Source: Beijerinckiaceae bacterium (GTDB lineage: Bacteria > Pseudomonadota > Alphaproteobacteria > Rhizobiales > Beijerinckiaceae). Taken from it: a DNA stretch of 64,000 nucleotides. How positions within the stretch are numbered: the stretch's first letter is position 1; each line of letters opens with the position of its first letter. The notes beneath the pieces were generated by a model. That model worked only from the letters and a program-made list of their open reading frames with translations. It was not told where the DNA came from and made no database searches. This document shows, one piece after another, positions 7,059 to 22,269 of the stretch. Location: assembly GCA_947452455.1 (NCBI GenBank), contig CANGBX010000001.1:434001-498000 (forward strand), given 5' to 3'. The translations under genes and the position numbers were made by a program.

Positions 7059-7529
7059 ATGAACAAGCCCGGCAAGACTGCCTTGGCGCGTGCGCGCGCG
7101 CTTTATGAAGCCAATGAGGTTTCCCTCGCAGACATTGCCAAAGGTTTGAAACTCACGCCCGCCGCTTTCCGTGCTTTGCGCCAACGCGAGCAATGGCCTG
7201 CGCGCGGTGAAATGCCAATGGCTGATGCGGATGAGGCCTCGCTCGACACATTGGCGCTGGAGCGCCGCTTGGTGCGCGCATTGCGCCGCGAGATTGCACG
7301 CGCCGAAAGCGAGATTGAGCAAACGGCACCCCCGGGTGCGGAGCGCAAGGCGCGTATTCTGGGGCTGTTGGTGAAGACGCTGGGGGATTTGCGCAAGCTC
7401 AATCACGATGAACGCGCGCAGGCGCAGAAGACGACAAGCGATGACACAGACACTCGCGATCTGGCCACATTGCGGCAGGCCCTTGCTCGACGACTTGGCG
7501 AATTGCGCCACAGAAGCGGAGATGGATGA
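7059..7529 (+). CDS. Small terminase subunit-like protein (GTA gp1 position)
   Basis: The product is 156 residues from ATG 7059. An upstream in-frame ATG (7005) lies inside the putative -10 box and is unlikely. The N-terminal third holds a helix-turn-helix-like segment (LADIAKGLKLTPAAFRALRQ), as in terminase small subunits that recognise DNA. The middle is a charged helical region rich in Arg and Glu, probably the oligomerisation domain. The gene overlaps the start region of the large terminase gene. In the GTA of Rhodobacter capsulatus the equivalent gene, g1, encodes TerS. Assignment rests on position and the HTH rather than on strong sequence identity. Confidence 0.6.
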   Translation: MNKPGKTALARARALYEANEVSLADIAKGLKLTPAAFRALRQREQWPARGEMPMADADEASLDTLALERRLVRALRREIARAESEIEQTAPPGAERKARILGLLVKTLGDLRKLNHDERAQAQKTTSDDTDTRDLATLRQALARRLGELRHRSGDG

Positions 7530-8814
7530 TCTGCTGCATGATTTTTCGGCTGCAGATTTGAAGCGAATTTTAGAGGCCTGGGAATTTTCAGCGCGCGATG
7601 ACCAATGGCCACCGCGTGAAGCGCAAGCGGGTGGGCCATGGACCGTGTGGCTGATCATGGGTGGGCGCGGTGCTGGCAAAACGCGCGCTGGTGCCGAATG
7701 GGTGCGCGGCATGGCGCTCGGCCTGCCCGGATTTTCTCAAGGGCCGGTTGGACGCATGGCGCTTGTCGGTGAGACTGCGGCAGATGTGCGCGATGTGATG
7801 ATTGAAGGTGTGTCGGGGATTCTCGCCATTCATGGGCGTGATGAGCGTCCACTCTGGGAGCCTTCGCGCAAAAGATTGATCTGGCCCAATGGCGCTATCG
7901 CGCAGGCTTTTTCGGCAGAAGATCCGGAGAGTTTGCGAGGGCCTCAATTTGCTGCCGCATGGCTCGATGAATTGGCGAAATGGCGTTATGCGGAGGAGAC
8001 ATTCGACATGTTGCAATTTGGTTTGCGGCTGGGCGCGCATCCGCGACAGGTGGTGACGACGACCCCGCGCCCTGTGCCGATTTTAAAGCGCCTTCTTGGG
8101 GATTCCAAAACCGCTGTTTCGCGTGCAGCGACGCAGGCCAATGCGCAAAATCTGGCGCATGAATTTCTGGAGCGCATTGTCGCGCGCTATCATGGCACAC
8201 GATTGGGCCGACAGGAATTGCTTGGCGAAATGATTGAAGAGCGTACTGACGCTTTGTGGACACGTGACATGCTGGAGGCGGCGCGCGAGGCGCAGGCACC
8301 CGCGATGCTCCGCATTGTTGTCGCGCTTGATCCGCCTGCTTCATCGCATAAGCGGGCTGATTCATGCGGGCTTGTGGTGGCAGGCATTGATGAGGCCGGC
8401 CATGTGCATGTGTTGGAAGATGGAACTGTATCAGCCGCACGACCCGCCAAATGGGCGCGTGCTGCGGTGGCGCTTTATCACAAGCATGAGGCCGATGCTT
8501 TGATTGCCGAAGTCAATCAGGGTGGCGAGATGGTGGAGGCCGTGATCTCTGAGGCTGACCCGCATGTGCCGGTGAAACAAGTGCGCGCGACGCGTGGCAA
8601 ATATTTGCGCGCAGCACCTGTGGCGCAACTCTACGAGCAGGGCCGCGTGCATCATGTGGGTGCGCTTGCCGCACTTGAAGATGAAATGTGTGCTTTTGGC
8701 CCCGACGGATTGGACAATGGCCGCAGTCCTGACCGGCTTGATGCTTTGGTCTGGGCGGTGACAGCGCTTGCTTTGCAGCCACAAGCGCCGCAGCCGAGCG
8801 TGCGGCGGATTTAA
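7441..8814 (+). CDS. GTA/phage large terminase subunit (ATPase-nuclease)
   Basis: The product is 457 residues from ATG 7441; 7408 and 7522 are other possible starts. Family-like sequence (LLDDLANCATEAEMDDLL) begins before 7522, which argues for an upstream start. Walker A is GGRGAGKT, and Walker B is AAAWLDE followed by LAKW. The coupling segment VVTTTPRPVPILKRLL is typical of GTA terminases. The C-terminal RNase H-like nuclease shows acidic residues at VVALDPPAS and DRLDALVWAV. The enzyme pumps DNA into the prohead. It is the best-conserved gene of the cluster and looks intact. Confidence 0.93.
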   Translation: MTQTLAIWPHCGRPLLDDLANCATEAEMDDLLHDFSAADLKRILEAWEFSARDDQWPPREAQAGGPWTVWLIMGGRGAGKTRAGAEWVRGMALGLPGFSQGPVGRMALVGETAADVRDVMIEGVSGILAIHGRDERPLWEPSRKRLIWPNGAIAQAFSAEDPESLRGPQFAAAWLDELAKWRYAEETFDMLQFGLRLGAHPRQVVTTTPRPVPILKRLLGDSKTAVSRAATQANAQNLAHEFLERIVARYHGTRLGRQELLGEMIEERTDALWTRDMLEAAREAQAPAMLRIVVALDPPASSHKRADSCGLVVAGIDEAGHVHVLEDGTVSAARPAKWARAAVALYHKHEADALIAEVNQGGEMVEAVISEADPHVPVKQVRATRGKYLRAAPVAQLYEQGRVHHVGALAALEDEMCAFGPDGLDNGRSPDRLDALVWAVTALALQPQAPQPSVRRI

Positions 8815-8838
8815 ATTTTTCTGACAAATGAGGTTTTC

Positions 8839-9999
8839 ATGCCCGGTCTTTTTGCAAGACTTTCGGGGCGCTCCACACGCGCGCCTGCCGAAGCCAAACA
8901 ATCGCGCACGGCGGCGATTTTCAGCATGGGATTTTCCTATGCGCGCGCGCAGCCGCGCGAGGCCACCGAATTGGTGCGCCAAGGTTATGAGCGAAACCCG
9001 ATTGTTTTTCGCTCGGTGCGCATGATTGCCGAGAGTGTCGCCTCGGTGCCGTGGCTTCTCTATGTGCAGGGGCAGGAGCGTGCGGACCATCCGCTGGCGC
9101 AAGTGTTGCGTGCACCCGGTGGCTCGCGCTCTGGCGTCGAATTGATTGAAATTCTCGTCACCAATTTACTGCTCTTCGGCAATGCCTATGTCGAAGCGGT
9201 GACGATTGATGGCGCGCATCGCGAATGGCACGCTTTGCGCCCGGACCGCATGAGCATTGTGCCGGGTGGCAATGGATGGCCGCTGGCCTATGAATATACA
9301 GTGGGTGCCGAGCGTGTGCGATTTGGCGTCGCTGACCAGTCCATTTTGCATCTCAAATTCTTTTCGCCACTCGATGATCATTATGGCTTGCCGCCCCTCG
9401 CGGCCGCTGAAACGGCGCTGGACACGCATAATGCAGCAGGCCAATGGAACCGTGCCTTGCTAGAAAATGCTGCGCGGCCCTCGGGTGCGCTGGTTTATGC
9501 GGGGCCGGATGGGGCGAGTTTGTCGGATGAGCAATTCGACCGATTGAAACATGAATTGGATGAAAGTTTTTCAGGACTTCGCAATGCGGGGCGCCCGCTT
9601 TTGCTGGAAGGCGGGCTTGACTGGAAAGCCTTGTCACTCACGCCGAAAGAATTGGATTTCATTGAAGCCAAGGCTGGTTCCGCGCGCGAGATTGCGCTCG
9701 CCTTGGGTGTGCCGCCGCTGGTTCTGGGGCTGCCAGGCGACAATACTTTTTCCAATTATCAGGAAGCCAATCGCGCCTTTTGGCGGCAAAACATTTTGCC
9801 ATTTGTGCATCGCCTGCAGGCTTCTTTCAACACATGGCTGCAGCCGACTTATGGCGATGTGGAATGGCGCGCCAATCTTGATGCGATTGATGCACTGGCC
9901 TCTGAGCGCGCAGCCGAATGGGCGCGTGTGGGGGCTGCTGATTTTCTGACCCGCGATGAAAAGCGTGAAGCGGTTGGCTATGGGGCAGGGCCCGTATGA
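8839..9999 (+). CDS. Phage portal protein, HK97 type (GTA gp3)
   Basis: The product is 386 residues, the usual size for GTA portals. The N-terminus carries the conserved FRSVRMIAESVASVPW motif, then HPLAQVLRAPG and the LLLFGNAYVEAV strand. The clip/stem region is followed by GLDWKALSLTPKELDFIEA and NYQEANRAFWR, hallmarks of HK97-like portals. It forms the dodecameric DNA gate at one capsid vertex. A gagg ribosome-binding site precedes ATG 8839. Its stop overlaps the start of the next small gene by 4 bases (ATGA). No frame damage is seen. Confidence 0.92.
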   Translation: MPGLFARLSGRSTRAPAEAKQSRTAAIFSMGFSYARAQPREATELVRQGYERNPIVFRSVRMIAESVASVPWLLYVQGQERADHPLAQVLRAPGGSRSGVELIEILVTNLLLFGNAYVEAVTIDGAHREWHALRPDRMSIVPGGNGWPLAYEYTVGAERVRFGVADQSILHLKFFSPLDDHYGLPPLAAAETALDTHNAAGQWNRALLENAARPSGALVYAGPDGASLSDEQFDRLKHELDESFSGLRNAGRPLLLEGGLDWKALSLTPKELDFIEAKAGSAREIALALGVPPLVLGLPGDNTFSNYQEANRAFWRQNILPFVHRLQASFNTWLQPTYGDVEWRANLDAIDALASERAAEWARVGAADFLTRDEKREAVGYGAGPV

Positions 10000-10184
10000 A
10001 CGACATTACCCAAAGCATTATTGCGCGCGGCGACCTTGCCCATCTTGCGCTTTTTTTATGGGCGAGCGGAGCCTCGGGACTTTTGGTGTTTGCGCTTCGC
10101 GAAAGTGCAGAAGCCAATCGCCGCTTTGATGAATTTGTCCGTGAATTATCCAATTTCAATCGTCGATTTGGGGAGCGCAAATGA
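9996..10184 (+). CDS. Small membrane-associated GTA protein (gp3.5 position)
   Basis: The product is 62 residues, starting at ATG 9996 inside the portal stop (ATGA overlap). It has one hydrophobic segment (about residues 14-33, LAHLALFLWASGASGLLVFA) followed by a charged amphipathic tail. It sits where R. capsulatus GTA has g3.5, between portal and protease. I do not recognise a characterised family. Its stop in turn overlaps the start of the next micro-ORF, which supports it being translated. Confidence 0.65.
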   Translation: MNDITQSIIARGDLAHLALFLWASGASGLLVFALRESAEANRRFDEFVRELSNFNRRFGERK

Positions 10185-10276
10185 GCCTGTCTTTTTTTGT
10201 TAAACCGCGGCGCACGCCGGACCCGCGCCGGATCTTTCGTCGTTTTTTACGCATTATTTTTGTGGAGCGCGGCTGA
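10181..10276 (+). CDS. 31-residue basic micro-protein locked between gp3.5 and prohead protease genes
   Basis: ATG 10181 overlaps the stop of the preceding gene (ATGA), and its own stop at 10274-10276 shares one base with the ATG of the protease gene (TGATG). The peptide begins MSLSFFVKPRRTPDPRRIF and is rich in Arg with a hydrophobic FLRIIFV end; 9 of its 31 residues are Arg or Lys. The overlaps at both ends mirror those of neighbouring genes and suggest a translated, coupled gene, or at least a translational relay to the protease. No known family is recognised. Length alone makes this uncertain. Confidence 0.5.
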   Translation: MSLSFFVKPRRTPDPRRIFRRFLRIIFVERG

Positions 10277-10779
10277 TGCTGGAGCGCAAGATTATTTCAA
10301 GCCCCGCGCTTGATGTGCGCGATGCGCGCCATGGGTTTCAGGTCGAGCCTGATGGGACATTTGAAGGTTATGCGAGCCTGTTCGGCATTGTGGATATGGG
10401 TGGCGACGAAGTGGCACCCGGCGCTTTTGCGCGCTCTCTGCAACAACGTGGCGCGAAAGCTGTACGCATGTTGTGGCAGCATGATCCATCGCTGCCGATT
10501 GGCTCCTGGGTGTCGATCAAAGAAGACCAGAGGGGCTTGCGTGTGAAGGGCCGGCTCAATCTCGCTGTCTCGCGAGCGCGTGAAACTTTGGCTTTGTTGA
10601 AAGAGGGTGCGGTTGACGGGCTCTCGATCGGGTTTCGCGTGAAGAATGCGCGGAAATCGGCAGGGGGCGGCATTCGTCGCCTGCTGGAAGTTGATCTTTG
10701 GGAAATCTCCATCGTGACTTTTCCCATGTTGCCGCAGGCGCGCATCACATCGGTAAAGCAGCGCGCCGCTTTTCATTGA
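10276..10779 (+). CDS. Prohead maturation protease, S78/HK97 type (GTA gp4)
   Basis: The product is 167 residues. Sequence features match caudovirus prohead proteases: GTFEGYASLFGIVDMGGDEV near the N-terminus, the catalytic His in MLWQHDPS, the catalytic Ser in DGLSIGF, and the acidic partner region LWEISIVTFPM. It would cleave capsid and scaffold peptides during head maturation. It is followed 11 bases later by the capsid gene, as in HK97-like phages and GTAs. All presumed catalytic residues are present. Confidence 0.92.
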   Translation: MLERKIISSPALDVRDARHGFQVEPDGTFEGYASLFGIVDMGGDEVAPGAFARSLQQRGAKAVRMLWQHDPSLPIGSWVSIKEDQRGLRVKGRLNLAVSRARETLALLKEGAVDGLSIGFRVKNARKSAGGGIRRLLEVDLWEISIVTFPMLPQARITSVKQRAAFH

Positions 10780-10790
10780 AAGGAATTTTT

Positions 10791-12032
10791 ATGAGTGAGA
10801 TTGAGACCAAATCTTTGGGCGGACAGGATGCCCAGACCGTATTTGACGACATGCATCGTATTTTTCATGCCTATCAGGAGGCAAATAATGAACGCCTTGC
10901 GGAGCTGGAGGCCAAACTCTCCGGTGATGTGCTGGTGGAAGAAAAAGTGGCGCGCATTGATGCGGCACTCGATGACCAGCGCCGCAAAATGGATCGTCTT
11001 TTGATTGAAAAATCGCGACCGCATTTGGCATCCGTTGAACGCGTGCCTGATGTTACCTCGCGCGAACATAAATCGGCCTTCCGGAATTATATGCGCACAG
11101 GCGAAGTGGCAGGTCTGAAAGCCATTGAAGAAAAGGCTTTGTCAGCGGGTTCGGGGCCTGATGGGGGTTACCTTGTGCCTGTTCCGGCAGAGCGTGAGAT
11201 CTTGCGGCGCATGGCCAATATATCGCCCATTCGCGCCATTGCTTCTGTGCGCGAGATTTCAACTTCGACTTACAAGAAAGCTTTTTGTCCGACAGGGCCT
11301 GCAGCCGGATGGGTCGCTGAAACCGATGCGCGAACGCAAACGGCTAGTCAGCAGATTGCCGATCTGACTTTTCCGGCCATGGAACTCTATGCCATGCCCG
11401 CCGCCACGCAGACTTTGCTCGATGATGCAGCGGTGGATATTGAGCAATGGATTTCGGAGGAAGTGAATACGGTCTTTGCCGAACAAGAAGGTGCGGCCTT
11501 TATCAATGGCAATGGTGTGGGCAAGCCAACCGGGCTGCTCTCTTACACCAAGTCGAATGTTGCTGGTTGGGGCTGGGGCAAGACGGCCTATCTGCCAACG
11601 GGCGTAGCTGCTGGTTTTGCGGCGACCAACCCGTCCGACACTCTTGTTGATCTCATCTATACATTGCGCTCCGGCTATCGCCGGAACGGGCGCTTTTTGA
11701 TGAACCGCAAGACGCAGGCGCAAATCCGCAAGTTCAAAGCCTCGACAGGCGAATATTTGTGGCAGCCGCCGGCGCAATTGGGTGCGACCGCAACCTTGAT
11801 GAATTTCCCCATCATCGAGGCGGAAGATATGCCCGATATTGCAGCCGGATCTTTCTCGCTGGCCTTTGCCGATTTCAATCGCTGTTATCTGATTGTCGAT
11901 CGTGTTGGCATTCGGGTGTTGCGTGATCCTTATTCCACCAAACCCTATGTGCTGTTCTACACAACGAAGCGTGTGGGTGGTGGAATCCAGGATTTCGATG
12001 CGATCAAACTGTTGAAGTTTGATGTGTCCTAA
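10791..12032 (+). CDS. Major capsid protein, HK97 fold (GTA gp5)
   Basis: I set the start at ATG 10791, after aaagga; the open frame extends upstream into the protease gene without a better site. The product is 413 residues. An N-terminal coiled-coil delta domain (about 1-95) is followed by the mature capsid domain, with the conserved GSGPDGGYLVP segment, IASVREIST, AAGWVAETDART and NGNGVGKPTGLL. The C-terminal half carries RRNGRFLMNRKTQAQIRKFK and LWQPPAQLG, typical of GTA/HK97 capsids. It ends 6 bases before the convergent trypsin-like gene. Confidence 0.93.
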   Translation: MSEIETKSLGGQDAQTVFDDMHRIFHAYQEANNERLAELEAKLSGDVLVEEKVARIDAALDDQRRKMDRLLIEKSRPHLASVERVPDVTSREHKSAFRNYMRTGEVAGLKAIEEKALSAGSGPDGGYLVPVPAEREILRRMANISPIRAIASVREISTSTYKKAFCPTGPAAGWVAETDARTQTASQQIADLTFPAMELYAMPAATQTLLDDAAVDIEQWISEEVNTVFAEQEGAAFINGNGVGKPTGLLSYTKSNVAGWGWGKTAYLPTGVAAGFAATNPSDTLVDLIYTLRSGYRRNGRFLMNRKTQAQIRKFKASTGEYLWQPPAQLGATATLMNFPIIEAEDMPDIAAGSFSLAFADFNRCYLIVDRVGIRVLRDPYSTKPYVLFYTTKRVGGGIQDFDAIKLLKFDVS

Positions 12033-12038
12033 GCCCGA

Positions 12039-12761
12039 CTAACGCGACCAGTTGGCGAGCGCTTTTTCAATGAAAGCACGCTCGGGGCCAAGGCGCAGAG
12101 CTTGAGTGAGATCACCGCAAGCTTTGTCGCCCACGCCCGCTGACCAGACGGTGATGGCGACGAGCTTTGACTCTTGCGAGAGAAAAGGACCGCCAGAATC
12201 ACCCGTGCAACCACCACGCCCGCGCGCTTGCGGGTCTTTCGCCCAGATCAGCAATTTGGACAGAGGCTCACGCGTGACAAGGGTTGCGGACATGAGTGTA
12301 CCGGCGGTTTTGCCGTCTTTCTCTTGCCGCAAACCAAAGCCTGAAATGATGAAGGGCGTGCCGAGTTCGACACGCGCGTCATAGTCGATGGTGAGCGGCG
12401 TAAAATTGGCAGGCAAGGCGCGGTCTAAACGCACGAGTGCCAGATCAATGCTGCGCTCGCGCGTCTTGGGCGCATCCGGTCTGTAGCCGGGATGGATGAG
12501 AATGTCTTTGGCCGGGACGAAAGCCTCGGGCTTTAAGCCCGGCCAATAGGCAACGGCACCTTTGATCTTGTGCACGCAATGGGCGGCTGTGAGCAGCACG
12601 TCTTGGGCAATGACATTGGCCGTGCAGAAGCCGCGCTCATTGAGCAGCATGAGCAGAGATGATTGCGCTGGACTGCCTTCTTGTGCAGGTCCGGTGATGG
12701 CGTGAGCGGGCGCGCAGCCCAAGCTCAACGCAAATGCGAAAGCAGTGAATTTTTGGCGCAT
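12039..12761 (-). CDS. Secreted trypsin-like serine protease, antisense inside the GTA cluster
   Basis: From ATG 12761 the product is 240 residues with a signal peptide ending at AHA (residue ~21); an in-frame ATG 9 bases upstream is equally possible. The chymotrypsin triad is complete: His61 in LTAAHC, Asp106 in DLALVRL, Ser189 in GDSGGP. It is probably periplasmic or secreted. The gene runs opposite to the GTA genes, converging on the capsid gene (6-base gap) and diverging from the adaptor gene (46 bases). Phage heads do not normally encode exported trypsin-like proteases, so it is probably a host gene placed in the cluster. Its function is unknown. Confidence 0.88.
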   Translation of the reverse strand: MRQKFTAFAFALSLGCAPAHAITGPAQEGSPAQSSLLMLLNERGFCTANVIAQDVLLTAAHCVHKIKGAVAYWPGLKPEAFVPAKDILIHPGYRPDAPKTRERSIDLALVRLDRALPANFTPLTIDYDARVELGTPFIISGFGLRQEKDGKTAGTLMSATLVTREPLSKLLIWAKDPQARGRGGCTGDSGGPFLSQESKLVAITVWSAGVGDKACGDLTQALRLGPERAFIEKALANWSR

Positions 12762-12807
12762 GTCGATCATGTCGCTGCTTTTACAGCACATGGCGGAGAT
12801 TTTCAAA

Positions 12808-13371
12808 ATGACACCGATCCTGCTTGCGGGCCCGGCGCTCGAGCCTTTGTCGCTCGACGAGATGCGGGTCTATTTGCGACTGGAAACCAGCGAAGAGGAC
12901 GGACTTGTTCTCTCGCTGATCAAAGCGGCCCGCAATGCGGTGGAGCAGGGGGCACGCCGCGCTTTGATTGCGCAAAAGTGGCGTCTGCGGCTTCCGCGTC
13001 TACCGCGTGAGGCGACATTGCGTCTGCCTATTTCGCCGATCCTCTCGCTTGATGCAGTGCGCAGCTTTGACGCGCTGGGCAATCCAGTTTTGTTGGACCT
13101 TGCTTTGTTTCAGCTCGACGGTTCGACTTTGTGCCTCTCGCCGTCCCTGTTATCGGCGAATGGATCGGGTGGTCCTGTCGAGATCGATCTCACCGCAGGT
13201 TTTGGAACACAGGCGACCGATGTGCCCGACGCTCTGCGGCAAGCCATGCGCATGTTGGTGGCTCATTATTATGAGCATCGGGCCGATGCTTTGCATGAAG
13301 AGCATGTTGCGCATTTTCCAGCAGCCATTGCAGCAGCTGTCGCGCCCTGGCGGCGCATGCGCATTGCGTGA
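12808..13371 (+). CDS. Head-tail connector/adaptor protein (GTA gp6)
   Basis: I place the start at ATG 12808 (ggag nine bases before); the frame is open further upstream. The product is 187 residues. The N-terminus (PLSLDEMRVYLRLETSEEDGLV) is characteristic of gp6-like head-tail connectors, followed by a beta-rich domain (LRLPISPILSLDAVRSFDALG) and PDALRQAMRMLVAHYYEHRADA near the C-terminus. In R. capsulatus GTA this adaptor docks to the portal. The next gene, 9 bases on, is gp12-like, so genes equivalent to g7-g11 are missing here. Confidence 0.87.
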   Translation: MTPILLAGPALEPLSLDEMRVYLRLETSEEDGLVLSLIKAARNAVEQGARRALIAQKWRLRLPRLPREATLRLPISPILSLDAVRSFDALGNPVLLDLALFQLDGSTLCLSPSLLSANGSGGPVEIDLTAGFGTQATDVPDALRQAMRMLVAHYYEHRADALHEEHVAHFPAAIAAAVAPWRRMRIA

Positions 13372-13380
13372 GGGGCGGCC

Positions 13381-14019
13381 ATGACCAGTTTTCACGAGGT
13401 GCGCTTTCCTCTGGATATTTCAACACAAGCGCGTGGCGGGCCGGAGCGTGTCACCGAAATTGTGGTGACAAGCTCGGGGCGCGAGCAGCGCAATGCGCGC
13501 CGCGCCCATGCACGGCGTCGTTATGAAGCCGGCTATGGTGTGAAAAGCGCCAATGCCTTGTCGCAGGTTCTGGCTTTTTTTGAAGAGAGGCGCGGGCGGC
13601 TTTACGGGTTTCGCTGGCGTGACCGCAGTGATTATAAATCCTGCGCTCCAACGCAGGATGTTACCCCGCTCGATCAGATTATTGGCACGGGCGATGGTGT
13701 GACGCGATGCTTCCAGCTTATCAAAACCTACGGGCAGGAATTTGCACCCTATCAACGCGCCATTGTGAAACCTGTTGCGGGGAGTATCAGGCTTGCGGTT
13801 GCGGGTGTCGAATTCAATAAAAGTTTTTTCGATGTTGATGGCACCAATGGTCTTGTGACTTTTCATGTCGGTCATGTACCGCCACAAGATGCGCAAGTGA
13901 CGGCTGGTTTTCTTTTCGATGTGCCAGTGCGTTTCGATACGGATTATCTCGAAATTGATTATGCCGCTTTCGGCACGGGTGGAATCCCGAAAATTCCATT
14001 GATTGAAATTTTGCAGTGA
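13381..14019 (+). CDS. Distal tail/baseplate protein, DUF2460 (GTA gp12)
   Basis: The product is 212 residues. It opens with FHEVRFPLDISTQARGGP, then RERR-like positions (SSGREQRNARRAHARRRYEAGYG) and FFEERRGRLYGFRWRDRSDYKS, the signature of the DUF2460/TIGR02217 family. The C-terminus has VPVRFDTDYLEIDYAAFGTG. In the RcGTA particle this protein forms the distal tail ring joining tube to baseplate. Here it follows the adaptor gene directly, although its natural partner, the tail tube, is absent. Ribosome-binding site gagggg lies before ATG 13381. Confidence 0.92.
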   Translation: MTSFHEVRFPLDISTQARGGPERVTEIVVTSSGREQRNARRAHARRRYEAGYGVKSANALSQVLAFFEERRGRLYGFRWRDRSDYKSCAPTQDVTPLDQIIGTGDGVTRCFQLIKTYGQEFAPYQRAIVKPVAGSIRLAVAGVEFNKSFFDVDGTNGLVTFHVGHVPPQDAQVTAGFLFDVPVRFDTDYLEIDYAAFGTGGIPKIPLIEILQ

Positions 14020-14028
14020 GGTTGACCC

Positions 14029-14916
14029 ATGCGCGAGATGAATGAGGCGCTTCGGGCGCGACTTCATGCCGAGGTTACGCATCTGTGCACGTGTTGGAAA
14101 ATATTGCGACGTGACGGAGCGTTACAAGGATTCACGGATCATGATGAAGCCATCATTTTTGATGGTGTGACTTTTGAAACCGATGGCGGATTGCATCTGC
14201 GTGGTCAGGAAGAGCTGCTTGGCTTTCATGGCAGCAAGAGTGATGTCGGTGGCGCTCTTTTGCAATTTTCATTCGATGAAGGGGCGCTGGCGAGTGGCGC
14301 TTATGATGGTGCAAGTGTTGAAACCTGGCTGGTTGATTGGTGTGACCCTGATCTTCGTCTGTTGATGAATGTGGAAGTGATGGGCGAGGTGCGCCGTGCC
14401 GATCATGTGTTTTCAGCAGAGCTGCGCTCACTCGCTCAGGTGTTCGAGCAGGAGACAGGTCGGCGCTTCATGAAAACATGCAGTGCTGATCTCGGAGATG
14501 CACATTGCGGGGTTGATCTCACCCAGGTGCGTTATCTGACGCACGCCCCTGTGCAATCTGTTCAAGATGCGTCGCATGTCACGCTGATGCTTTCTGGATT
14601 TTCAGATCGGTGGTTTACCAATGGTCAGATACACGTGATCTCGGGTGCGCAGAAAGGCACCATCTGCGCGATCAAGGCTCATCGGCAAGACAATGATCGT
14701 GCACAGATTGTACTCTGGACACCACTCTCGCCTGCGCTTGATGTGGGCGATCAAATTGAATTGCGTGCGGGATGTGACAAAAGCTTTGCGACATGCGGGG
14801 CGAAATTTGCCAATCGCGTCAATTTTCGTGGCTTCCCGCATATTCCCGGCAATGATCTTTTAATGTCGCTGGCATCGAAAGAAATCGTGATGGATGGCGG
14901 GAGCCTTTTTTCATGA
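14029..14916 (+). CDS. Baseplate hub protein, DUF2163/BR0599 family (GTA gp13)
   Basis: The product is 295 residues. Diagnostic stretches are VTHLCTCWKILRRDG and GFTDHDEAIIF near the N-terminus, AYDGASVETWLVDW in the middle, and a C-terminal cysteine-bearing domain with CSADLGDAHCGVDLT, AGCDKSFATCGAKF and NFRGFPHIPGND. In RcGTA the C-terminal domain of gp13 binds an iron-sulfur cluster through Cys residues; four or more suitable Cys are present here. A gagg site precedes ATG 14029. The stop overlaps the next start by 4 bases. Confidence 0.92.
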   Translation: MREMNEALRARLHAEVTHLCTCWKILRRDGALQGFTDHDEAIIFDGVTFETDGGLHLRGQEELLGFHGSKSDVGGALLQFSFDEGALASGAYDGASVETWLVDWCDPDLRLLMNVEVMGEVRRADHVFSAELRSLAQVFEQETGRRFMKTCSADLGDAHCGVDLTQVRYLTHAPVQSVQDASHVTLMLSGFSDRWFTNGQIHVISGAQKGTICAIKAHRQDNDRAQIVLWTPLSPALDVGDQIELRAGCDKSFATCGAKFANRVNFRGFPHIPGNDLLMSLASKEIVMDGGSLFS

Positions 14917-15347
14917 GTGTGCTGTCGCGACAGATCATTGTCGAGGCTGCGCGCGGGTGGATAGGCACGCCCTATTTGCATCAAGCGTCTTTGCAGCATG
15001 TTGGCTGCGACTGTCTTGGGCTGTTGCGCGGTGTTTGGCGCGATTGCGTGGGGCCCGAGCCTGAGGTTGCGCCACCCTATACGCCCGATTGGGCGGAAGC
15101 ATCGGGTGAAGAGGCGCTGCTTGCTGCAGCTTTGCGCTGTTTTTCACCGGTGACGGGCTCGTTTCAAGCAGGTGATGTGTTGTTGTTTCGCTGGCGCGAT
15201 GGATTGCCCGCAAAACATATCGGCCTTGCGACCTCTACGACCACAATGATCCACGCACATGATGGGGCTTGCGTGTGTGAAGTGAGTCTTGGTTCAGCCT
15301 GGCGACGACGTTTGGTGCAGGCTTTTTCTTTTCCTGATGTGAAGTGA
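14913..15347 (+). CDS. NlpC/P60-type tail peptidase (GTA gp14)
   Basis: The product is 144 residues and starts inside the gp13-like stop codon. The NlpC/P60 active site is visible: GTPYLHQAS then VGCDCLGLLRG with the catalytic Cys, and AKHIGLATS with the catalytic His, followed by MIHAHDGACV. It would cut peptidoglycan cross-links as the particle crosses the cell wall. Size and position match RcGTA g14. Confidence 0.93.
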   Translation: MSVLSRQIIVEAARGWIGTPYLHQASLQHVGCDCLGLLRGVWRDCVGPEPEVAPPYTPDWAEASGEEALLAAALRCFSPVTGSFQAGDVLLFRWRDGLPAKHIGLATSTTTMIHAHDGACVCEVSLGSAWRRRLVQAFSFPDVK

Positions 15348-15354
15348 GATCCAG

Positions 15355-18300
15355 ATGGCAACCTTGCTGCTGCAAAGTGCGATTGGCTCTGTTTCCCATG
15401 CTTTGGGCGGGCCTGTTGGCGCGCTGGTAGGAAAAGTTCTGCCAAGTCTTCTGACGAATTCTTTGGGTAGCCTGCTGGGCGAGCATAAAGTTGTTGAGGG
15501 GCCACGCCTTACCAATCTGGCATCCATGGCGTCGACAGAAGGTGCACCGATCCCGCGTCTTTATGGGCGCGCGCGCATTGGTGGACAAGTGATCTGGGCA
15601 ACGCGCTTTGTTGAAACGCAGTCGCGCACGCGCACTGGCGGATCGGGTGGCAAGAGCCAGCTCGTGGGTGCGGGCTCCACCACCGATCAAGTGACTTATG
15701 CTTATGCGGCCAATTTTGCTGTCGGCCTGTGCGAGGGCGAGATTGCTTTTGTGCGCCGTATCTGGGCGGATGGTCAGGAGATTGATCGTACTCGTTTCAC
15801 GCATCGTCTTTACACTGGTACACAGGACCAGATGCCTGATCCTCTGATCGTGGCAAAAGAAGGAGCGGATGAGGCGCCTGCCTATCGCGGTCTTGCTTAT
15901 CTTGTTTTCGAGAGTTTTCCGCTTGCCGATTATGGCAACCGGATTCCGCAATTGTCCTTCGAGATTGTGAAGCCTGTTTGCGGACTTGCAAAGATGATCC
16001 GTGCGGTCAATCTCATTCCAGGCTCTTCCGAATATGCTTATTCGATTGCACCTTTGATGGCGGGGGCTGCCGGTGTCAGCCAATCTGAAAATCGTCATCA
16101 GCTGTGTGGGGACAGTGATTGGTCTCTCTCGCTGGATGCTTTGCAGGCGCTATGCCCCAACCTGACGAATGTTTCTCTTGTCGTCTCGTGGTTTGGTACA
16201 GATATGCAGGCCGGTGCGTGCCGCATCGTTCCTGCAGTCGAATCCCGCAACAAAGAAGTCACGGCTGCGCCTTGGTCGGTGGCAGGGCTGACGCGTGGCA
16301 ATGCGCGTTTGGTGACACAGATTGATGGCAAGCCTGCTTATGGCGGCACACCGTCAGATATGATTGTGCGCGCCGCCATTGCGGACCTTAAACATCGCGG
16401 GCTGAATGTTTGTTTCTATCCATTTGTCATGATGGATGTGCCGGGCTTTGGTTGGCGCGGTGATATCAAACCGCAGGCAGCCGAACAGACGGCGGCTTTG
16501 GATGCAGAGATCGCGGCCTTCTTTGGTGAAGACGGATCAACGGAGCGTTACCGCGCTTTCATTTTGCATTATGCGCGATTGTGTGCGGATGCAGGCGGTG
16601 TTGAAGCCTTTCTGCTGGGCTCTGAACTGCGCGGCGTCACACGGGCTTTGGGTGCCAGTGGTTATGCTGCGCCCTTGGCTTTCAGGCGATTGGCGCAAGA
16701 TGCGCGTGCAATTTTGGGATCGAAGACGAAGCTCTCCTATAGTGCGGATTGGAGTGAATTTGGCGCGCTGTCGCGTGATGGCGGCAAGACTTTGCATTTT
16801 CCACTGGATGTTTTGTGGTCAGCGCCCGAAATCGATTTTATCGGTATTGATGCTTACTTTCCGCTCTCAGATTGGCGGGACGGAACAGACCATCTTGATC
16901 AAGGTCTGACCACATCCATTTATGATCGCAACTATTTGCGTGATGGTTTGGGATCGGGTGAAAATTTCGATTGGTTTTATGCAGATGATGCGGAGCGGCG
17001 TGAACAAATGCGCACGCCCATCAGGGACGGGCTGGGAAAGCCCTGGGTCCATCGCGCCAAAGATTTGGTGAATTTCTGGACGCAGCCGCATGTGCAGCGT
17101 GCGCAAGGTGTCGAGACTGTCTCAACAGATTGGGTTCCATGTTCAAAGCCGATCTGGCTTGTGGAGATTGGTTGCCCGGCGATTTCATGCGGCAGCAATG
17201 CGCCCAATATCTTTCCGGATGCCAAAGTAGCGCAGCAAAATCTGCCACCTTTTTCAGATGGAGCGCGTGATGATTTGATGCAAATCCGTGCTTTGGAAGC
17301 AATCATTGCGCGTTTTGATCCGCGCAGTCCGTTTCACCATGCGGGTGATAATCCGCTCTCGGCAACGGGTTTGCGCATGGTGGATCCGGATCGGCTTTAT
17401 GTGTGGGCCTGGGATGCAAGACCTTTTCCGGCATTTCCCATGTTGAGCCAATTATGGAGCGATGCGGAAAATTGGCACACGGGACATTGGCTGAACGGGC
17501 GGCTTGAATCTGCTCCGGTAGATGATCTCGTGCGTGCGCTTGTGCATGACATGACGGGGCTCAATATTGATCTGCCCGCGATTGATGCTTTGGCCGAGGG
17601 CTATGTGATTGATCGGCCTTTGACGGCGCGGGGTGTGATTGATCCGCTGTCTGCGTTCTTCGGATTTGATGCTCTGAATTCAGCGGGGAAGATTCGCTTT
17701 CAGCAGCGCAATCGCGGGACGATTGTTGATCTCAGCGCAGATGATCTTGTGCTGGATGATCACGGCGCGCCGTTCACATTGTTGCGCGCGCAAGATAGCG
17801 ATCTGCCCCATGAGGTGCATCTGGCTTTTATCAGTTCGGAATGGGACTACCGCCCTGCCAGTGCCCTCTCGCGCCGGTTGGAGGGGGCCACACGCCGATT
17901 GGCCGAAGGCGAAGTTGCGCTTGTGACGGATGCGGCGGCCGCGCAACATGCAGCGGATGTTTGGTTGCAGGATTTATGGGTGGCGCGTGATCGTATTAGT
18001 TTCCTGCTGAGGCCGGGCTTTGTGGGGTTGGAAGCTGGTGATGTGATCCGCCTGCCGATTGCAGGCACTCCGCGGCTTTTTCGTATTTTGCGCATCGTCG
18101 AGCAGGGCGCGCGCAAGGTTGAGGCGCGGGCGGTGGATTTGTCGATCTTTGATCATCGCGTTCAGCGATCACGAGAAGCGGCTTTATCTGCGCCAGTTTT
18201 GCCGGGTCCGCCACATGTCGAGATTTTGGACCTTGCTTGGGCGCGAGAGGATGTGCCGGCATTGCAATATGTGGCGGCATTTGCTGATCCATGGCCGGGC

Positions 18301-19137
18301 GCTTTGTCGCTTTATTTGCGAAGTGGTGGCGGGTTTGATTTTTTTAGTTCTGTGACGCGCTGCGCCATCATGGGTGAAACGCTGGATGTCTTGGCGCCTG
18401 GCCCAGTGGGACGCTTTGATCTTGCCAATTCTTTCCGTGTGGCTTTGCGCGGCGGCGCGCCGTCTTCAGTCTCTGATGTCGATCTGTTGGCTGGGCGCAA
18501 TTTACTGGCGCTGCGTGGAGAAGATGGGCGTTGGGAGCTAATCGGGTTCGGTCGCGCTGATCTTGTTGATGCAGATGTGTGGAAGATTTCGCGTCTGTTA
18601 CGCGGCTTTGGTGGTGAAGAGGATTTGGCCGCACGGCTTTTGCCAGTTGGCGCCACATTGGTGATGGTGGATGAGGCTTTGGTGCCGCTGGCGCAGGGGT
18701 TGGACCGTTTAGGGGTCGCGCAACATTTTCGTATCGGGCCCCAGAAGCGTGATTATGCCGATGCCACTTATTTGCCGTTTGAGGCAACCCCGAGCGCGCT
18801 CAGTCTGCGGCCCTATGCGCCTGTGCGGGCCAAAGCGCAGCGCGGGGCTGATGGTATGCGTATTTCTTTCCTGCGTCGCACGCGTCGCCACGGCGATAAT
18901 TGGGAAGGTCTTGAAGTTCCGCTTGGTGAAGACAGCGAGGCTTATGTGGTGGATGTGCTCTCAGGCACACAAGTGAAGCGCAGCTTATCTTCAAACGCAC
19001 CATTGGTATTCTATTCGAGCCAACAAGAGCTGGCTGATTTTGGCGCTGTGCAGAACGTTTTATCACTGCGTATTGCGCAGGTGAGTGCTGCTGTCGGGCG
19101 TGGTTTTGATTTGATTGTGACTCTTCCTGTTCTTTGA
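15355..19137 (+). CDS. GTA megatron / tail tip host-specificity protein (GTA gp15)
   Basis: The product is 1260 residues, close to the usual ~1300 of GTA gp15, and appears full length. The N-terminus has the small-residue-rich helix ATLLLQSAIGSVSHALGGPV, then NLASMASTEGAPIPRLYGRARI and the hub-like VTYAYAANFAVGLCEGEI, FVRRIWADGQEI. A TIM-barrel/glycosidase-like domain follows (about 350-700: FLLGSELRGVTRA, LDVLWSAPEIDFIGIDAYFPLSDW). After that comes the conserved C-terminal tail module (RLLRGFGGEEDLA, VRAKAQRGADGMRISFLRRTR). It forms the central spike of the baseplate in RcGTA. Confidence 0.93.
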   Translation: MATLLLQSAIGSVSHALGGPVGALVGKVLPSLLTNSLGSLLGEHKVVEGPRLTNLASMASTEGAPIPRLYGRARIGGQVIWATRFVETQSRTRTGGSGGKSQLVGAGSTTDQVTYAYAANFAVGLCEGEIAFVRRIWADGQEIDRTRFTHRLYTGTQDQMPDPLIVAKEGADEAPAYRGLAYLVFESFPLADYGNRIPQLSFEIVKPVCGLAKMIRAVNLIPGSSEYAYSIAPLMAGAAGVSQSENRHQLCGDSDWSLSLDALQALCPNLTNVSLVVSWFGTDMQAGACRIVPAVESRNKEVTAAPWSVAGLTRGNARLVTQIDGKPAYGGTPSDMIVRAAIADLKHRGLNVCFYPFVMMDVPGFGWRGDIKPQAAEQTAALDAEIAAFFGEDGSTERYRAFILHYARLCADAGGVEAFLLGSELRGVTRALGASGYAAPLAFRRLAQDARAILGSKTKLSYSADWSEFGALSRDGGKTLHFPLDVLWSAPEIDFIGIDAYFPLSDWRDGTDHLDQGLTTSIYDRNYLRDGLGSGENFDWFYADDAERREQMRTPIRDGLGKPWVHRAKDLVNFWTQPHVQRAQGVETVSTDWVPCSKPIWLVEIGCPAISCGSNAPNIFPDAKVAQQNLPPFSDGARDDLMQIRALEAIIARFDPRSPFHHAGDNPLSATGLRMVDPDRLYVWAWDARPFPAFPMLSQLWSDAENWHTGHWLNGRLESAPVDDLVRALVHDMTGLNIDLPAIDALAEGYVIDRPLTARGVIDPLSAFFGFDALNSAGKIRFQQRNRGTIVDLSADDLVLDDHGAPFTLLRAQDSDLPHEVHLAFISSEWDYRPASALSRRLEGATRRLAEGEVALVTDAAAAQHAADVWLQDLWVARDRISFLLRPGFVGLEAGDVIRLPIAGTPRLFRILRIVEQGARKVEARAVDLSIFDHRVQRSREAALSAPVLPGPPHVEILDLAWAREDVPALQYVAAFADPWPGALSLYLRSGGGFDFFSSVTRCAIMGETLDVLAPGPVGRFDLANSFRVALRGGAPSSVSDVDLLAGRNLLALRGEDGRWELIGFGRADLVDADVWKISRLLRGFGGEEDLAARLLPVGATLVMVDEALVPLAQGLDRLGVAQHFRIGPQKRDYADATYLPFEATPSALSLRPYAPVRAKAQRGADGMRISFLRRTRRHGDNWEGLEVPLGEDSEAYVVDVLSGTQVKRSLSSNAPLVFYSSQQELADFGAVQNVLSLRIAQVSAAVGRGFDLIVTLPVL

Positions 19138-19151
19138 CGAAAGTTTTTCTC

Positions 19152-21065
19152 ATGTCTGATACGACACGGCTGAAACTGCCGCGGATTGATGCCGCGCAGT
19201 CGCAAAAGCACGTCACGCATAATGAGGCGTTGGAAAATTTGGATGCGCTTGTGCATCTTTCTGTCACCGCCCGCAATGTGTCGTCACCTCCTGCCAACCC
19301 TGTGGAGGGAATGGCCGTGATAGTGAATACGGCTGCACAGGGTGCCTTCGCTGGTCAGGCTTTGAATGTTGCGGCTTTTGGCGACAATGCCTGGCGGTTT
19401 TATGCGCCGCGTCCGGGCTGGCGTGCTTATGTGCAAAGCGAAGGCTTATTTTATGTCTTTGATGGCGCGGATTGGGTGAAGCAACGCATCGATCTGCAGG
19501 ATGTTCAAAATCTGCGCTATGCAGGTTTCGGCACGAGTGCGGATGCGCAAAATCCATTTTCTGCCAAGCTCAATGGTGTTTTGTTTGCAGCTCGTTCGGC
19601 GGCTGAGGGCGGCACGGGTGATTTGAGGTTCACACTCAATCGTTCGCAGGGCACGAATGTTGTCTCACAGCTTTATCAGTCCAATTGGTCCGGGCGTGTA
19701 GAAACCGGACTGATGGGGGACGATAAATATCGCATCAAAGTCTCTGCCGATGGAGCCAGTTGGAAAGAAGCACTGTCGATTGATCCGAGCACAGGTCGTG
19801 TCAATTTTCCCAACGGCATTTCTGACCAACCCGCTGTCGATCCCAAAGCGCAGGTGACGGCCAAGAGCAATTCGTTTCTCTTTGCACCTTATTCTGTGGG
19901 GGAAGGTGGCACGGGTGATTTGCGGTTTACGCTCAATCGTTCGCAGGCAACGAATGTTGTCTCACAGCTTTATCAATCCAATTGGTCTGGGCGTCCTGAA
20001 ACCGGTTTGATGGCGGATGATCGGTTCCGCATCAAGGTTTCGGCTGATGGGTCAAGCTGGAAAGATGCGCTTTATGCCGATCCGAATACGGGTCGTGTGT
20101 TCTTTCCCAATGGCGCCAGCGATCTTGCCGCTTCTGTTGCTGTGACGAGTGGCACGCCGGCGGCATATTTTCTGAGTGCGCCGCTGCGCGGGGCATTGCC
20201 GGATGGGGCATTGTTCTGGATGGTGCCGCATGTACCCAATGCGACGGCATTGAATGTCGATCCGACTTTGCAGCTTGACCAGATTGATGCGACGCCGCTT
20301 CCTTTAAAAGCTTTTGATGGCTCCACTTTGCCGCAAGGATGTCTGGAAACCGGCAAGGCGATTGCTGTGCGCAAAAGTGGCGCGGCTTACTTTGCGCAGG
20401 TTCAGCGCTCGGTCCCTGCTTTGCTCAATCTGGTGGAAGATGGCGGGCGCTTTGCGGGCAATCCAGAACCCGTCTCCTGGGCGGTTGCGACTTATACCGA
20501 TGTGACGTGGATCACCAATCTCAATGGGTCCGTGCGCGCCAATTATGGCGTGGCGCGGCCGGGCACGACGCTCAATGCGAATATTGCCGATCTGTTGAAT
20601 AAAATTCGTCCTGCGGCTGCGCAGACTTCGGGATCCGAGTTTTTTGTACAGCAGATCACGGCTGGCACAGGTGTGACTTTGCCTGTGACGGTGCAATCGA
20701 CATTGCACTATCCGTTTTTGTCGAGCGTGCGCAATGTCGGGCGAGGCATCACAGCTGGCGCTTATTTTCGCGTTCTGTCCGGTAGTGTTGTGCTGGCCAG
20801 CAGCGAGACCATCCCGCGTCTGCTGGTCGATGGTGTGGCGCATAATATTGCAGCCGATACGCCGGCGCGCATTTTCAATGCGGCCTCTGGCTGGAAGCAT
20901 TTGCAAATGTGGCTGACGCCCGCCAACGGATCGACGACATCACTTTGGCCGATCCGCGCAACACCGGGCACGATCTTGCTTTTTGCGCTGCCCAGCATTG
21001 TGCAAGGACTCGAGACAATCCCGTGGGACATCGGGCCCATGCCATCCTATCGCGTGTGGAGGTGA
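19152..21065 (+). CDS. DUF2793 fibre-like protein with a duplicated 82-residue module
   Basis: I place the start at ATG 19152, 15 bases after the gp15-like gene; a TTG six codons upstream would overlap that gene. The product is 637 residues. The N-terminal DUF2793 domain starts LKLPRIDAAQSQKHVTHNEAL and continues to FDGADWVKQRIDLQ. Two tandem 82-residue modules then follow (GGTGDLRFTLNRSQ, VSQLYQSNWSGR). The remaining ~310 residues are a beta-rich, Thr/Ser-rich region without a recognised fold. DUF2793 genes often end GTA and prophage tail operons, and the product is probably a host-contacting fibre or spike. Confidence 0.82.
   Translation: MSDTTRLKLPRIDAAQSQKHVTHNEALENLDALVHLSVTARNVSSPPANPVEGMAVIVNTAAQGAFAGQALNVAAFGDNAWRFYAPRPGWRAYVQSEGLFYVFDGADWVKQRIDLQDVQNLRYAGFGTSADAQNPFSAKLNGVLFAARSAAEGGTGDLRFTLNRSQGTNVVSQLYQSNWSGRVETGLMGDDKYRIKVSADGASWKEALSIDPSTGRVNFPNGISDQPAVDPKAQVTAKSNSFLFAPYSVGEGGTGDLRFTLNRSQATNVVSQLYQSNWSGRPETGLMADDRFRIKVSADGSSWKDALYADPNTGRVFFPNGASDLAASVAVTSGTPAAYFLSAPLRGALPDGALFWMVPHVPNATALNVDPTLQLDQIDATPLPLKAFDGSTLPQGCLETGKAIAVRKSGAAYFAQVQRSVPALLNLVEDGGRFAGNPEPVSWAVATYTDVTWITNLNGSVRANYGVARPGTTLNANIADLLNKIRPAAAQTSGSEFFVQQITAGTGVTLPVTVQSTLHYPFLSSVRNVGRGITAGAYFRVLSGSVVLASSETIPRLLVDGVAHNIAADTPARIFNAASGWKHLQMWLTPANGSTTSLWPIRATPGTILLFALPSIVQGLETIPWDIGPMPSYRVWR
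19581..20123 (+). repeat. Two tandem 246-bp in-frame repeats in the fibre-like gene
   Basis: Copies at 19581-19826 and 19878-20123 are each exactly 246 bases (82 codons), with a period of 297 bases. DNA identity is high over the core; both contain caatcgttcgcagg and tgttgtctcacagctttatc, with mostly synonymous or conservative differences elsewhere. The two copies encode nearly the same GGTGDLRF...FPNG module, indicating a fairly recent duplication. Confidence 0.85.
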
Positions 21066-21068
21066 GCC

Positions 21069-21857
21069 ATGGCGCAGCGTCATTGGCAGGCCTGCCTGAC
21101 GGCTATTCTCAATGAAGAAGGTGGTTTTGCGGATAATCCGGGTGATCCGGGTGGCGCGACCAATATGGGCATTACGCGCAAGACTTTGTCGGCTTGGCGC
21201 GGCGAGCCTGTCTCGCGTGAAGATGTGATGATGCTTGAGCGTGATGAAGCAGCGCGCATCTATCGTGAAAAATTCTGGATGGCGATCGGCGGCGATGATC
21301 TGCCTGACGGGCTTGATCTCGTGCTGTTTGATGATGGTGTGCTGTCAGGCCCGCGCACGGCAATCCGCGATTTGCAAAATGCTTTGCAGGTGACGCCTGA
21401 CGGTCTGATGGGTCCGGCGACGCGCGCGGCCGTTGCAGCGCTGCCCGTGGCTGAGGTCATCTCTTTGTTGCAGGCCGTGCGGCTCGCGCGGCTCAAATCA
21501 CTTCCCCATTTTGCGTTGTTTGGTCGCGGCTGGTCGCGGCGCTTGCAGCGTATTGAGCGGCAAGCCAAAGCGCTTGCCAAAATCGCGCGGGCGCAAAGCC
21601 CCGCACCATCTGCGGCGCAAGACAAGGCCGCACAGAAAGGAGAGAGTTCCATGGCTGAGACGAAACTAGACACCAAGCCTTTTTGGGCTTCACAGACCAT
21701 CTGGTCATCCATCGCGGTGATCGGCTCGTCGCTGACGGGCGCTTTGCTGGCCTGGAAGGGCAATGACATTGCCGGCTTCGGGGCGGCGCTGACCGCGCTT
21801 CTGGGCGGGGTCAATGCCATTGTGGGCCGCGTGCGTGCCGCAACCCCCATCGCCTAA
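21069..21857 (+). CDS. GH108 endolysin with peptidoglycan-binding domain and C-terminal membrane segments
   Basis: The product is 262 residues. The N-terminal GH108 (secretion-activating/lysozyme) domain shows the catalytic Glu in LNEEGGFADNPGDPGG and TNMGITRKTL. A PG-binding type 3 domain (about 97-165) contains LQNALQVTPDGLMGPATRAAV. A low-complexity Ala/Gln/Lys linker leads to a holin-like hydrophobic region (about 205-250: IWSSIAVIGSSLTGALLAW, FGAALTALLGGVNAIVG). It would lyse the host to release particles, a job done by genes outside the main cluster in R. capsulatus. An internal in-frame start at 21651 may also yield the membrane part alone. Confidence 0.87.
   Translation: MAQRHWQACLTAILNEEGGFADNPGDPGGATNMGITRKTLSAWRGEPVSREDVMMLERDEAARIYREKFWMAIGGDDLPDGLDLVLFDDGVLSGPRTAIRDLQNALQVTPDGLMGPATRAAVAALPVAEVISLLQAVRLARLKSLPHFALFGRGWSRRLQRIERQAKALAKIARAQSPAPSAAQDKAAQKGESSMAETKLDTKPFWASQTIWSSIAVIGSSLTGALLAWKGNDIAGFGAALTALLGGVNAIVGRVRAATPIA
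21651..21857 (+). CDS. Possible separately translated holin-like protein (in-frame internal start)
   Basis: ATG 21651 (Met195 of the endolysin) is preceded by aaaggagag, a better ribosome-binding site than that of the full-length gene, at about 6 bases spacing. The product would be 68 residues: a short polar N-terminus (AETKLDTKPFWASQ), two hydrophobic segments separated by AWKGNDIAG, and a basic end. That is the layout of a class II holin. Dual-start endolysin/holin use is inferred from the site only. The alternative is that an ancestral separate holin gene became fused and kept its site. Confidence 0.45.
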   Translation: MAETKLDTKPFWASQTIWSSIAVIGSSLTGALLAWKGNDIAGFGAALTALLGGVNAIVGRVRAATPIA

Positions 21858-21935: not shown

Positions 21936-22265
21936 ATGGGAACGATGCTGACAATGGTGGCGATGACAGCCACGCTCGCCACACCCGCTGCCGCGCAGGC
22001 GGAGCGGGTGCGCGCCTGCTTGTCTGCGCAAGAAACACGCGACAGTGTTGCTGCACATCAATTGCGCGAGCCGCTGGCCCTGTTGCGAGATGCTGCACGC
22101 GAGACCCGCGCCGAGCCGCTCAATTCGCGCCTCTGCCGCTGGAACGAACAATTCGTCTATGAAATGTCATTGCTGCGGCGTGACGGGCGCGTGTTGCGCG
22201 TCTTTGTCGATGCAGCGTCGGGAAACAAAATTCCTGCGCGCGAGACATCAGGACAGGGACGCTAG
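21936..22265 (+). CDS. Small exported PepSY-like protein upstream of a FeuPQ-type system (FeuN position)
   Basis: From ATG 21936 the product is 109 residues with a signal peptide cleaved around AAAQA (residue ~22); the true start could be ATG 21945. The mature part has two Cys (ACLSAQ and SRLCRWN) and a PepSY-like end (YEMSLLRRDGRVLRVFVDAASG). It ends 4 bases before the response regulator ATG. In Sinorhizobium meliloti the small periplasmic inhibitor FeuN lies upstream of feuPQ, so a sensor-modulating role is plausible. Similarity to FeuN itself cannot be checked here. Confidence 0.6.
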   Translation: MGTMLTMVAMTATLATPAAAQAERVRACLSAQETRDSVAAHQLREPLALLRDAARETRAEPLNSRLCRWNEQFVYEMSLLRRDGRVLRVFVDAASGNKIPARETSGQGR

Positions 22266-22269
22266 AAAC

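Follow-up and report, generated by a model that had tools for sequence, protein, structure and literature searches.

The window analysed here is the 64,000-nucleotide stretch G000:C1:434001-498000 of a Beijerinckiaceae bacterium, which lies inside a 651-kb contig of this genome (G000; 3.05 Mb on 13 contigs, 95.6% complete). Positions 7059-21857 of the window carry a cluster related to the gene transfer agent (GTA) RcGTA, in which nine bases stand in place of the tail tube genes that tail-bearing relatives have between head and baseplate. The listing of open reading frames (ORFs), Pfam and NCBIfam together give the following order, with positions in the window:

7059..7529, plus strand: g1, small terminase, assigned by position and similarity to relatives (tblastn), without a Pfam match
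7408..8814, plus strand: g2, large terminase TerL (PF03237, PF17289); start possibly at 7444
8839..9999, plus strand: g3, HK97-type portal (PF04860, TIGR01537)
9996..10184, plus strand: g3.5 candidate, an ORF of 62 amino acids from the ORF listing, without a Pfam match
10276..10779, plus strand: g4, prohead protease of family S78 (PF04586)
10788..12032, plus strand: g5, HK97-fold major capsid protein (PF05065, TIGR01554)
12039..12758, minus strand: trypsin-family protease gene, antisense, between g5 and g6 (PF00089, E 8.5e-21)
12772..13371, plus strand: g6, adaptor (PF05135; RcGTA adaptor 6tba, E 1.7e-16)
13372..13380, no strand: nine-base junction in place of g7-g11 of tail-bearing relatives (from the sequence and its relatives)
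13381..14019, plus strand: g12, distal tail protein (PF09343, TIGR02217; RcGTA 6tba, E 6.7e-65)
14029..14916, plus strand: g13, baseplate hub (PF09931, PF09356, TIGR02218)
14913..15347, plus strand: g14, NlpC/P60 peptidase (PF00877, TIGR02219)
15355..19137, plus strand: g15, megatron baseplate protein of 1260 amino acids (NF048004, 1480 bits; PF13547/PF13550/PF23666)
19134..21065, plus strand: DUF2793 tail-fibre-like protein with an internal repeat (PF10983)
21069..21857, plus strand: GH108 endolysin (PF05838)

The head module (TerL, portal, protease, HK97 capsid, adaptor) is thus present in RcGTA-like order, as is the g12-g15 baseplate module with its megatron (TIGR02217, TIGR02218, TIGR02219 and NF048004, all above cut-off). 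In NCBIfam the portal, the HK97 capsid, the Rcc01695-family distal tail protein, the GTA hub, the NlpC peptidase and the GTA megatron each score above cut-off, whereas neither TerL nor the fibre is matched there. The megatron is full length, spanning positions 1-1296 of the 1299 of its model NF048004. Five cysteines of the hub are invariant across 32 aligned rows, and H23, C32, D33 and C34 of the peptidase across 31 rows, D33-C34 being presumably the catalytic Cys motif. The first-pass annotation, made from the letters alone, had described this gene order with every frame open and only nine bases between g6 and g12; both descriptions are borne out (the g6 stop ends at 13371 and g12 starts at 13381). 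The genes in its list hold as well, but it had omitted the antisense trypsin-family gene at 12039-12758. Alignment with relatives indicates that the conserved start of g6 is probably the ATG at 12808 rather than 12772.

Absent from the gap between g6 and g12 are the stopper g7, the terminator g8, the tube protein g9, the chaperones g10 and g10.1 and the tape measure g11. In the tail-bearing genome G026 (locus L033) six ORFs lie in this position, namely a stopper (PF05521), a terminator (PF11367), a tube protein (PF06199), two tail assembly chaperones (PF11836 and PF09550) and the tape measure, which has no Pfam match. For g8, g9 and g11, profiles made from related sequences were searched against 11 genomes, and for g7 against 13. 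In the tail-bearing positive controls G063, G026 and G008 the profiles of g8, g9 and g11 all matched at E 1e-60 or better, and that of g7 at E 1e-41 or better. In G000 these searches found no convincing match to g7, g8, g9 or g11 elsewhere in the genome (g10 and g10.1 were not searched genome-wide). The g8 and g9 profiles had no match, and the g11 profile no strong match, in G000, G071, G066, G019, G025, G014, G002 and G017; g7 is absent from G000, G071, G066 and G019 and was found in the remaining nine genomes. The tube family PF06199 was matched in 0/1 for this genome and in 2/14 control genomes. Weak g11 matches (E 0.001-0.01) occur in G000, G071, G017 and G025 and cover profile positions 73/74-126. 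The tail-bearing G063 and G026 have the same second match, and G008 has one at another part of the profile; because the controls have such counterparts, the weak matches are taken as something other than a tape measure. On this ground the match at G000:C3:52842 (E 0.0014, in a frame of 576 amino acids) was rejected as a tape measure candidate. The completeness of the reduced genomes searched is 100% for G066, 95.6% for G000, 93% for G025 and 58-86% for the remaining four. The first-pass annotation had left open that the missing genes lie elsewhere; for g7, g8, g9 and g11 the searches of seven reduced genomes, with their positive controls, make such hidden tail genes unlikely.

The reduced arrangement is shared by other species. 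Among 51 genomes of the genus, 33 carry g12, and tblastn on the fetched loci places g11 beside g12 in 25 of these. In seven of the 33 none of g8-g11 lies beside g12, and in one (G017) the region is cut by contig ends. The seven are G000, G071, G066 and G019, which lack g7, and G025, G014 and G002, which keep it. The junction is not a product of chance: three other species have a g6-g12 junction like that of the window, and another three a g6-g7-g12 form. In G025 and G014 the g6-g7-g12 form lies on one contig; in G002 the adjacency depends on two contigs that share exactly 127 bases at g7-g12. G017, in which no g8, g9 or real g11 was matched and whose contigs end in g6 and shortly before g12, may be a further reduced species and is not counted among the seven.

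A phylogeny of seven concatenated genes (34 rows, some only partly filled, and 2118 columns; LG+G4, quick search, with the SH-like approximate likelihood ratio test, SH-aLRT, as the only support) joins the seven reduced species in one clade (SH-aLRT 99), sister to the tail-bearing G063/G026/G008. Within it, the four species without g7 and the three with g7 each form a subclade with a support of 100. The simplest history would be a single loss of g8-g11, followed by a single loss of g7, and the loss in the seven-species clade is old. The tree groups genomes of the same genus, with Methylosinus on an unresolved fork among them, and comprises GTA genes only. A TerL scan of named genomes gave 227 relatives, of which the best 80 were kept as loci. 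The closest 14 among these 80 are all metagenome-assembled genomes (MAGs), titled Beijerinckiaceae, Hyphomicrobiales, Rhizobiales or Methylocystaceae. The closest named TerL relative among the best 80 of 227 is L127 (95%, Jr-28aug17-148); it belongs to the seven-species clade, as do L128 (Umea2_bin-2525) and L129.

According to the tree, the window and G071 diverged only after both losses, and the ratio of nonsynonymous to synonymous substitution rates (dN/dS, by Nei-Gojobori) of this pair therefore measures selection in the absence of the tail. For this pair, the head genes give 0.13 (g1), 0.047 (TerL), 0.056 (portal), 0.048 (protease), 0.070 (capsid) and 0.12 (g6), and the genes from the baseplate onward 0.11 (g12), 0.087 (g13), 0.089 (g14), 0.078 (g15), 0.089 (fibre) and 0.19 (lysin). 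Bootstrap intervals, available for 10 genes, have an upper bound of at most 0.285. The 1260 codons of g15 are open in both the window and G071, at 86% identity. In the same pair, dN/dS is 0.009-0.093 for eight downstream ORFs that were treated as host genes; a ninth gene (22045-22938), misaligned by a wrong start, was left out of this background. In the reduced pairs G066-G019, G025-G002 and G014-G002 the GTA genes range over 0.06-0.19 and the trypsin gene over 0.21-0.28; G449-G450, a pair from a second reduced clade, gives 0.05-0.22. In five tail-bearing pairs, one of which includes G021, itself without g13-g14, dN/dS is similar or higher for most genes (g12 0.10-0.17 and g15 0.12-0.16, where computable). 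Because dS comes close to saturation in some genes (1.44 in g13), single values are rough, but no ratio approaches 1. Since the loss of the tail the retained genes have been under strong purifying selection, much as in the tail-bearing pairs. The suggestion of the first-pass annotation that the cluster is not in simple decay is supported: a dN/dS near 1, which it had named as the refuting outcome, stands strongly opposite to the 0.05-0.19 obtained.

In the reduced species that keep a stopper, this protein has changed in a way that matches the loss. The g7 of G025, G014 and G002 has about 92 amino acids and lacks the long b2-b3 loop in the alignment (the G002 copy was seen unaligned). Predicted models give this loop 17 residues, partly of low confidence, in L033 and a 2-residue turn in L042 (mean predicted local distance difference test score 81 and 85, respectively). 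In RcGTA, a long loop and an insertion loop of the stopper bind the terminator (PMC7296036). The b2'-b3 loop of SPP1 gp16 comprises residues 40-56 (PMC9701221), which by alignment range overlaps the stretch deleted in the short g7. We infer that the deleted stretch corresponds to the RcGTA long loop; if so, the surface that holds the terminator was lost just where the terminator gene was lost. In the second reduced clade, where g8 is kept, g7 is 120-121 amino acids long. In RcGTA a single fold is common to the stopper, terminator, tube and distal tail proteins (PMC7296036), which makes a direct joint of g12 on the neck plausible. In the four species without g7, the alignment shows that g6 has a short deletion and a changed loop. 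The idea that a stopper-facing loop of g6 has been lost was dropped, because the RcGTA description suggests that the altered region belongs to the attachment domain facing the capsid rather than to the adaptor loop. In the megatron iris, 4 of 14 otherwise invariant columns are changed in all four species without g7, against 17 of 295 elsewhere (Fisher p 0.01), and control clades have 0/14 and 1/13 changed columns. An altered iris in these species is only suggestive, the region having been picked post hoc and deleted columns outside it left out. Three segments near residues 364-397, of 15, 7 and 3 alignment columns, are also missing from the g15 of the four species; tail-bearing relatives mostly have them.

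Loss of the tube module is found outside the seven-species clade as well. Among the 80 named loci, g6 and g12 are both seen in 50: 44 of them have g9 and g11, six have neither, and none is mixed. Besides L127, L128 and L129, the six comprise L155, L157 and L162 (G449/G450/G451, three MAGs), in which g7 and g8 are kept, g9, g10, g10.1 and g11 are gone from the cluster, and head and baseplate are kept. There g9 is absent from the whole genomes; g11 was looked for only in the loci. These three form a separate branch of the tree (100), and their loss is independent. In G099, from another family, g6-g7-g8-g12 are contiguous on a 954-kb contig with PF05521 and PF11367 matched; g9, g10, g10.1 and g11 are missing from the cluster, g11 not having been searched in the whole genome. 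G099 is outside the tree, so that its independence rests on taxonomy. In an order-wide sample of 397 genomes at least 90% complete, g12 is present in 257 and g9 in 245 of those. The 12 without g9 include five in which a contig ends close to g12 or is short (G223, G329, G416, G327 and G060), the deletions G246 and G270, three of other make-up, perhaps prophages (G249, G431 and G144), and the window and G099. The tube module was lost at least twice and probably a third time.

We think it somewhat better than an even chance that this is an RcGTA-like GTA whose tail was shortened ring by ring, still maintained by its host as a short-tailed particle that delivers DNA. The tree and the searches support that the common ancestor of the seven species lost g8, g9, g11 and, in the cluster, g10 and g10.1, and that the lineage of four species that includes this genome then lost the stopper g7. 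The head, neck, baseplate, fibre and lysin genes remained under purifying selection afterwards. The producer would still package host DNA into heads; the g12 ring would sit straight on the adaptor ring or a shortened stopper, and bear the hub, the peptidase, the megatron and the fibres. The resulting short-tailed particle would deliver its DNA through the baseplate, and the megatron iris would have to hold the DNA alone. Selection on the head and baseplate genes suggests a stubbier working particle and not a dying relic.

Several observations weigh against this proposal. Comparisons of the window with the more distant G066 or G019 give higher dN/dS (0.11-0.25; 0.23 and 0.38 for the trypsin gene), and in G066 a frameshift, which may be genuine or an assembly error, splits the capsid gene. 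At only 1 of the 71 g12 columns that are invariant in 12 tail-bearing rows is the residue changed in all four species without g7, so there is no obvious re-tailoring of g12. Broken or incomplete clusters are seen in other members of the genus (G004, G021 and G020). RcGTA from which g14 was deleted formed heads that were empty and tailless, and its DNA is believed to be retained by the tape measure together with the iris (PMC7296036); an RcGTA particle stripped in the same manner might therefore well be empty.

This last point also favours an unlikely but not negligible alternative, that the retained genes serve a function other than DNA injection, for example lysis that releases packaged DNA or a surface-binding lytic complex, with head and baseplate perhaps no longer joined. 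The capsid, peptidase and endolysin genes are all kept, and a tail defect in RcGTA yields empty heads; the portal, adaptor, hub, megatron and fibre, however, are constrained about as in the tail-bearing pairs where both are computable, as expected of one machine. It is improbable that a tube is supplied in trans, either by a tube protein that is non-homologous or diverged beyond recognition, or by a resident prophage that lends its tail. The profiles used reach only relatives of these GTA genes (g7, g8, g9 and g11), but g9 is the most conserved of the aligned tail genes (80% mean column identity over 12 rows, against 51-70% for g7, g8, g11 and g12) and its profile matched all three controls, the long loop of g7 is gone in the three species that retain g7, and PF06199 has no match in this genome. 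Slow decay, in which GTA production is being lost and the remaining genes are not yet broken, would fit the stepwise loss, the broken cluster of G004 and the capsid frameshift of G066; it is strongly disfavoured, and in our estimate very improbable, given the low dN/dS since the window-G071 split, the seven species and the g15 frame open in both. An assembly or binning artefact has next to no probability: the closest named relatives are draft MAGs and the g7-g12 adjacency of G002 depends on a contig overlap, but the junction is deep inside its contig and recurs in three other species, and two further species have g6-g7-g12 on one contig.

The cluster has the same order as that of RcGTA, with homologues of its terminase, portal, protease, HK97-fold capsid, adaptor, distal tail protein, hub, NlpC/P60 peptidase and megatron. 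It differs in encoding none of the stopper, terminator, five tube rings and tape-measure trimer present there (PMC7296036). It descends from the RcGTA-like family and may work like a member but, with g7-g9 and g11 not found, is not a typical one. The tail-bearing clusters of the same genus (G063, G026 and G008) are nearest in the GTA-gene tree and share the antisense trypsin gene and g12-g15 (the G008 contig ends in g14), but devote about 2.3 kb between g6 and g12 to g7, g8, g9, g10, g10.1 and g11. The clusters of G449/G450/G451 and of G099 likewise lack g9, g10, g10.1 and g11 and keep head and baseplate, but retain g7 and g8 and belong to separate lineages. Short-tailed phages of podovirus morphology, such as P22, would work alike, with a baseplate or tip near the portal and no tube, and the gene content, on which the comparison is based, is compatible with this. 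The RcGTA tape measure is described as resembling the P22 needle (PMC7296036). The baseplate here, by contrast, is of siphovirus type, and the likeness to P22-type phages is one of resemblance only.

More tentatively, and with somewhat less than even confidence, a domesticated particle of the long-tailed type may have become short-tailed by deletion alone, rings of the same fold being removed stepwise (tube and tape measure, terminator, then stopper) and g12, the only ring of that fold left, taking over the neck joint, at least twice and probably three times, the particle being useful throughout. If true, the tube and tape measure of a GTA would be dispensable. GTAs have been described as tailed particles, and among the matches listed in the open-access PubMed Central (PMC) literature we recognised no GTA without a tail tube. 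Seven tube-less species under selection allow a direct test of whether DNA transfer needs a tube, by what means a GTA lacking a tape measure would keep its DNA in, and whether the loss of genes can turn a siphovirus-like tail into a podovirus-like one. In one GTA survey at least, only clusters with 14/17 genes were kept and the rest discarded (PMC10883770), so reduced clusters such as these could be overlooked.

Other genomes show incomplete clusters of different kinds. In G004 (L134, 18724-19884) the start of g10 is fused in-frame to the C-terminal part of g15, g10.1-g14 being gone between, and a TAG lies inside the capsid match; this is a broken cluster of the same genus. G021 (L035) has g7-g12 and lacks g13, g14 and most of g15, which its sister G023 (L039) has. 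In G020 (L046) g12 and a partial g13 match are followed directly by the endolysin, with no g14 or g15 match in the 6.5-kb contig. G035 (L047, 10262-10651) has a stop codon inside the g8 match and the rest of the tail module present. G270 (L231) has the opposite pattern: its portal match is broken off and g4-g11 have no match, while matches to g12-g15, fibre and lysin remain. In the second reduced clade a conserved antisense ORF of about 90-145 amino acids lies between g8 and g12 (L157, 16974-17279, minus strand; also L155 and L162) and has weak relatives in some other loci; an assignment to DUF465 was dropped, as the L157 copy has no Pfam match.

Inside 7059-21857 no integrase, replication or regulatory gene is among the ORFs identified, no search aimed at integrases having been made; a glyoxalase-family gene adjoins the cluster upstream. 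RcGTA is not known to have a counterpart of the antisense trypsin gene that lies between g5 and g6 here. An antisense trypsin match in this position occurs in 43 of the 64 named loci with capsid and g6, 18 of the 43 having two or more matches. In Caulobacter, LypA and LypC, which have trypsin-like peptidase domains, are needed for host lysis as part of the control of GTA release (PMC13236601). The product of the window gene, however, looks secreted, since its N-terminus resembles a signal when judged by eye, and its PADLOC matches are only weak. The fibre-like protein contains a near-identical tandem segment at about residues 150-330, read from the ORF, and is 643 amino acids long in the window against 538 in G071.

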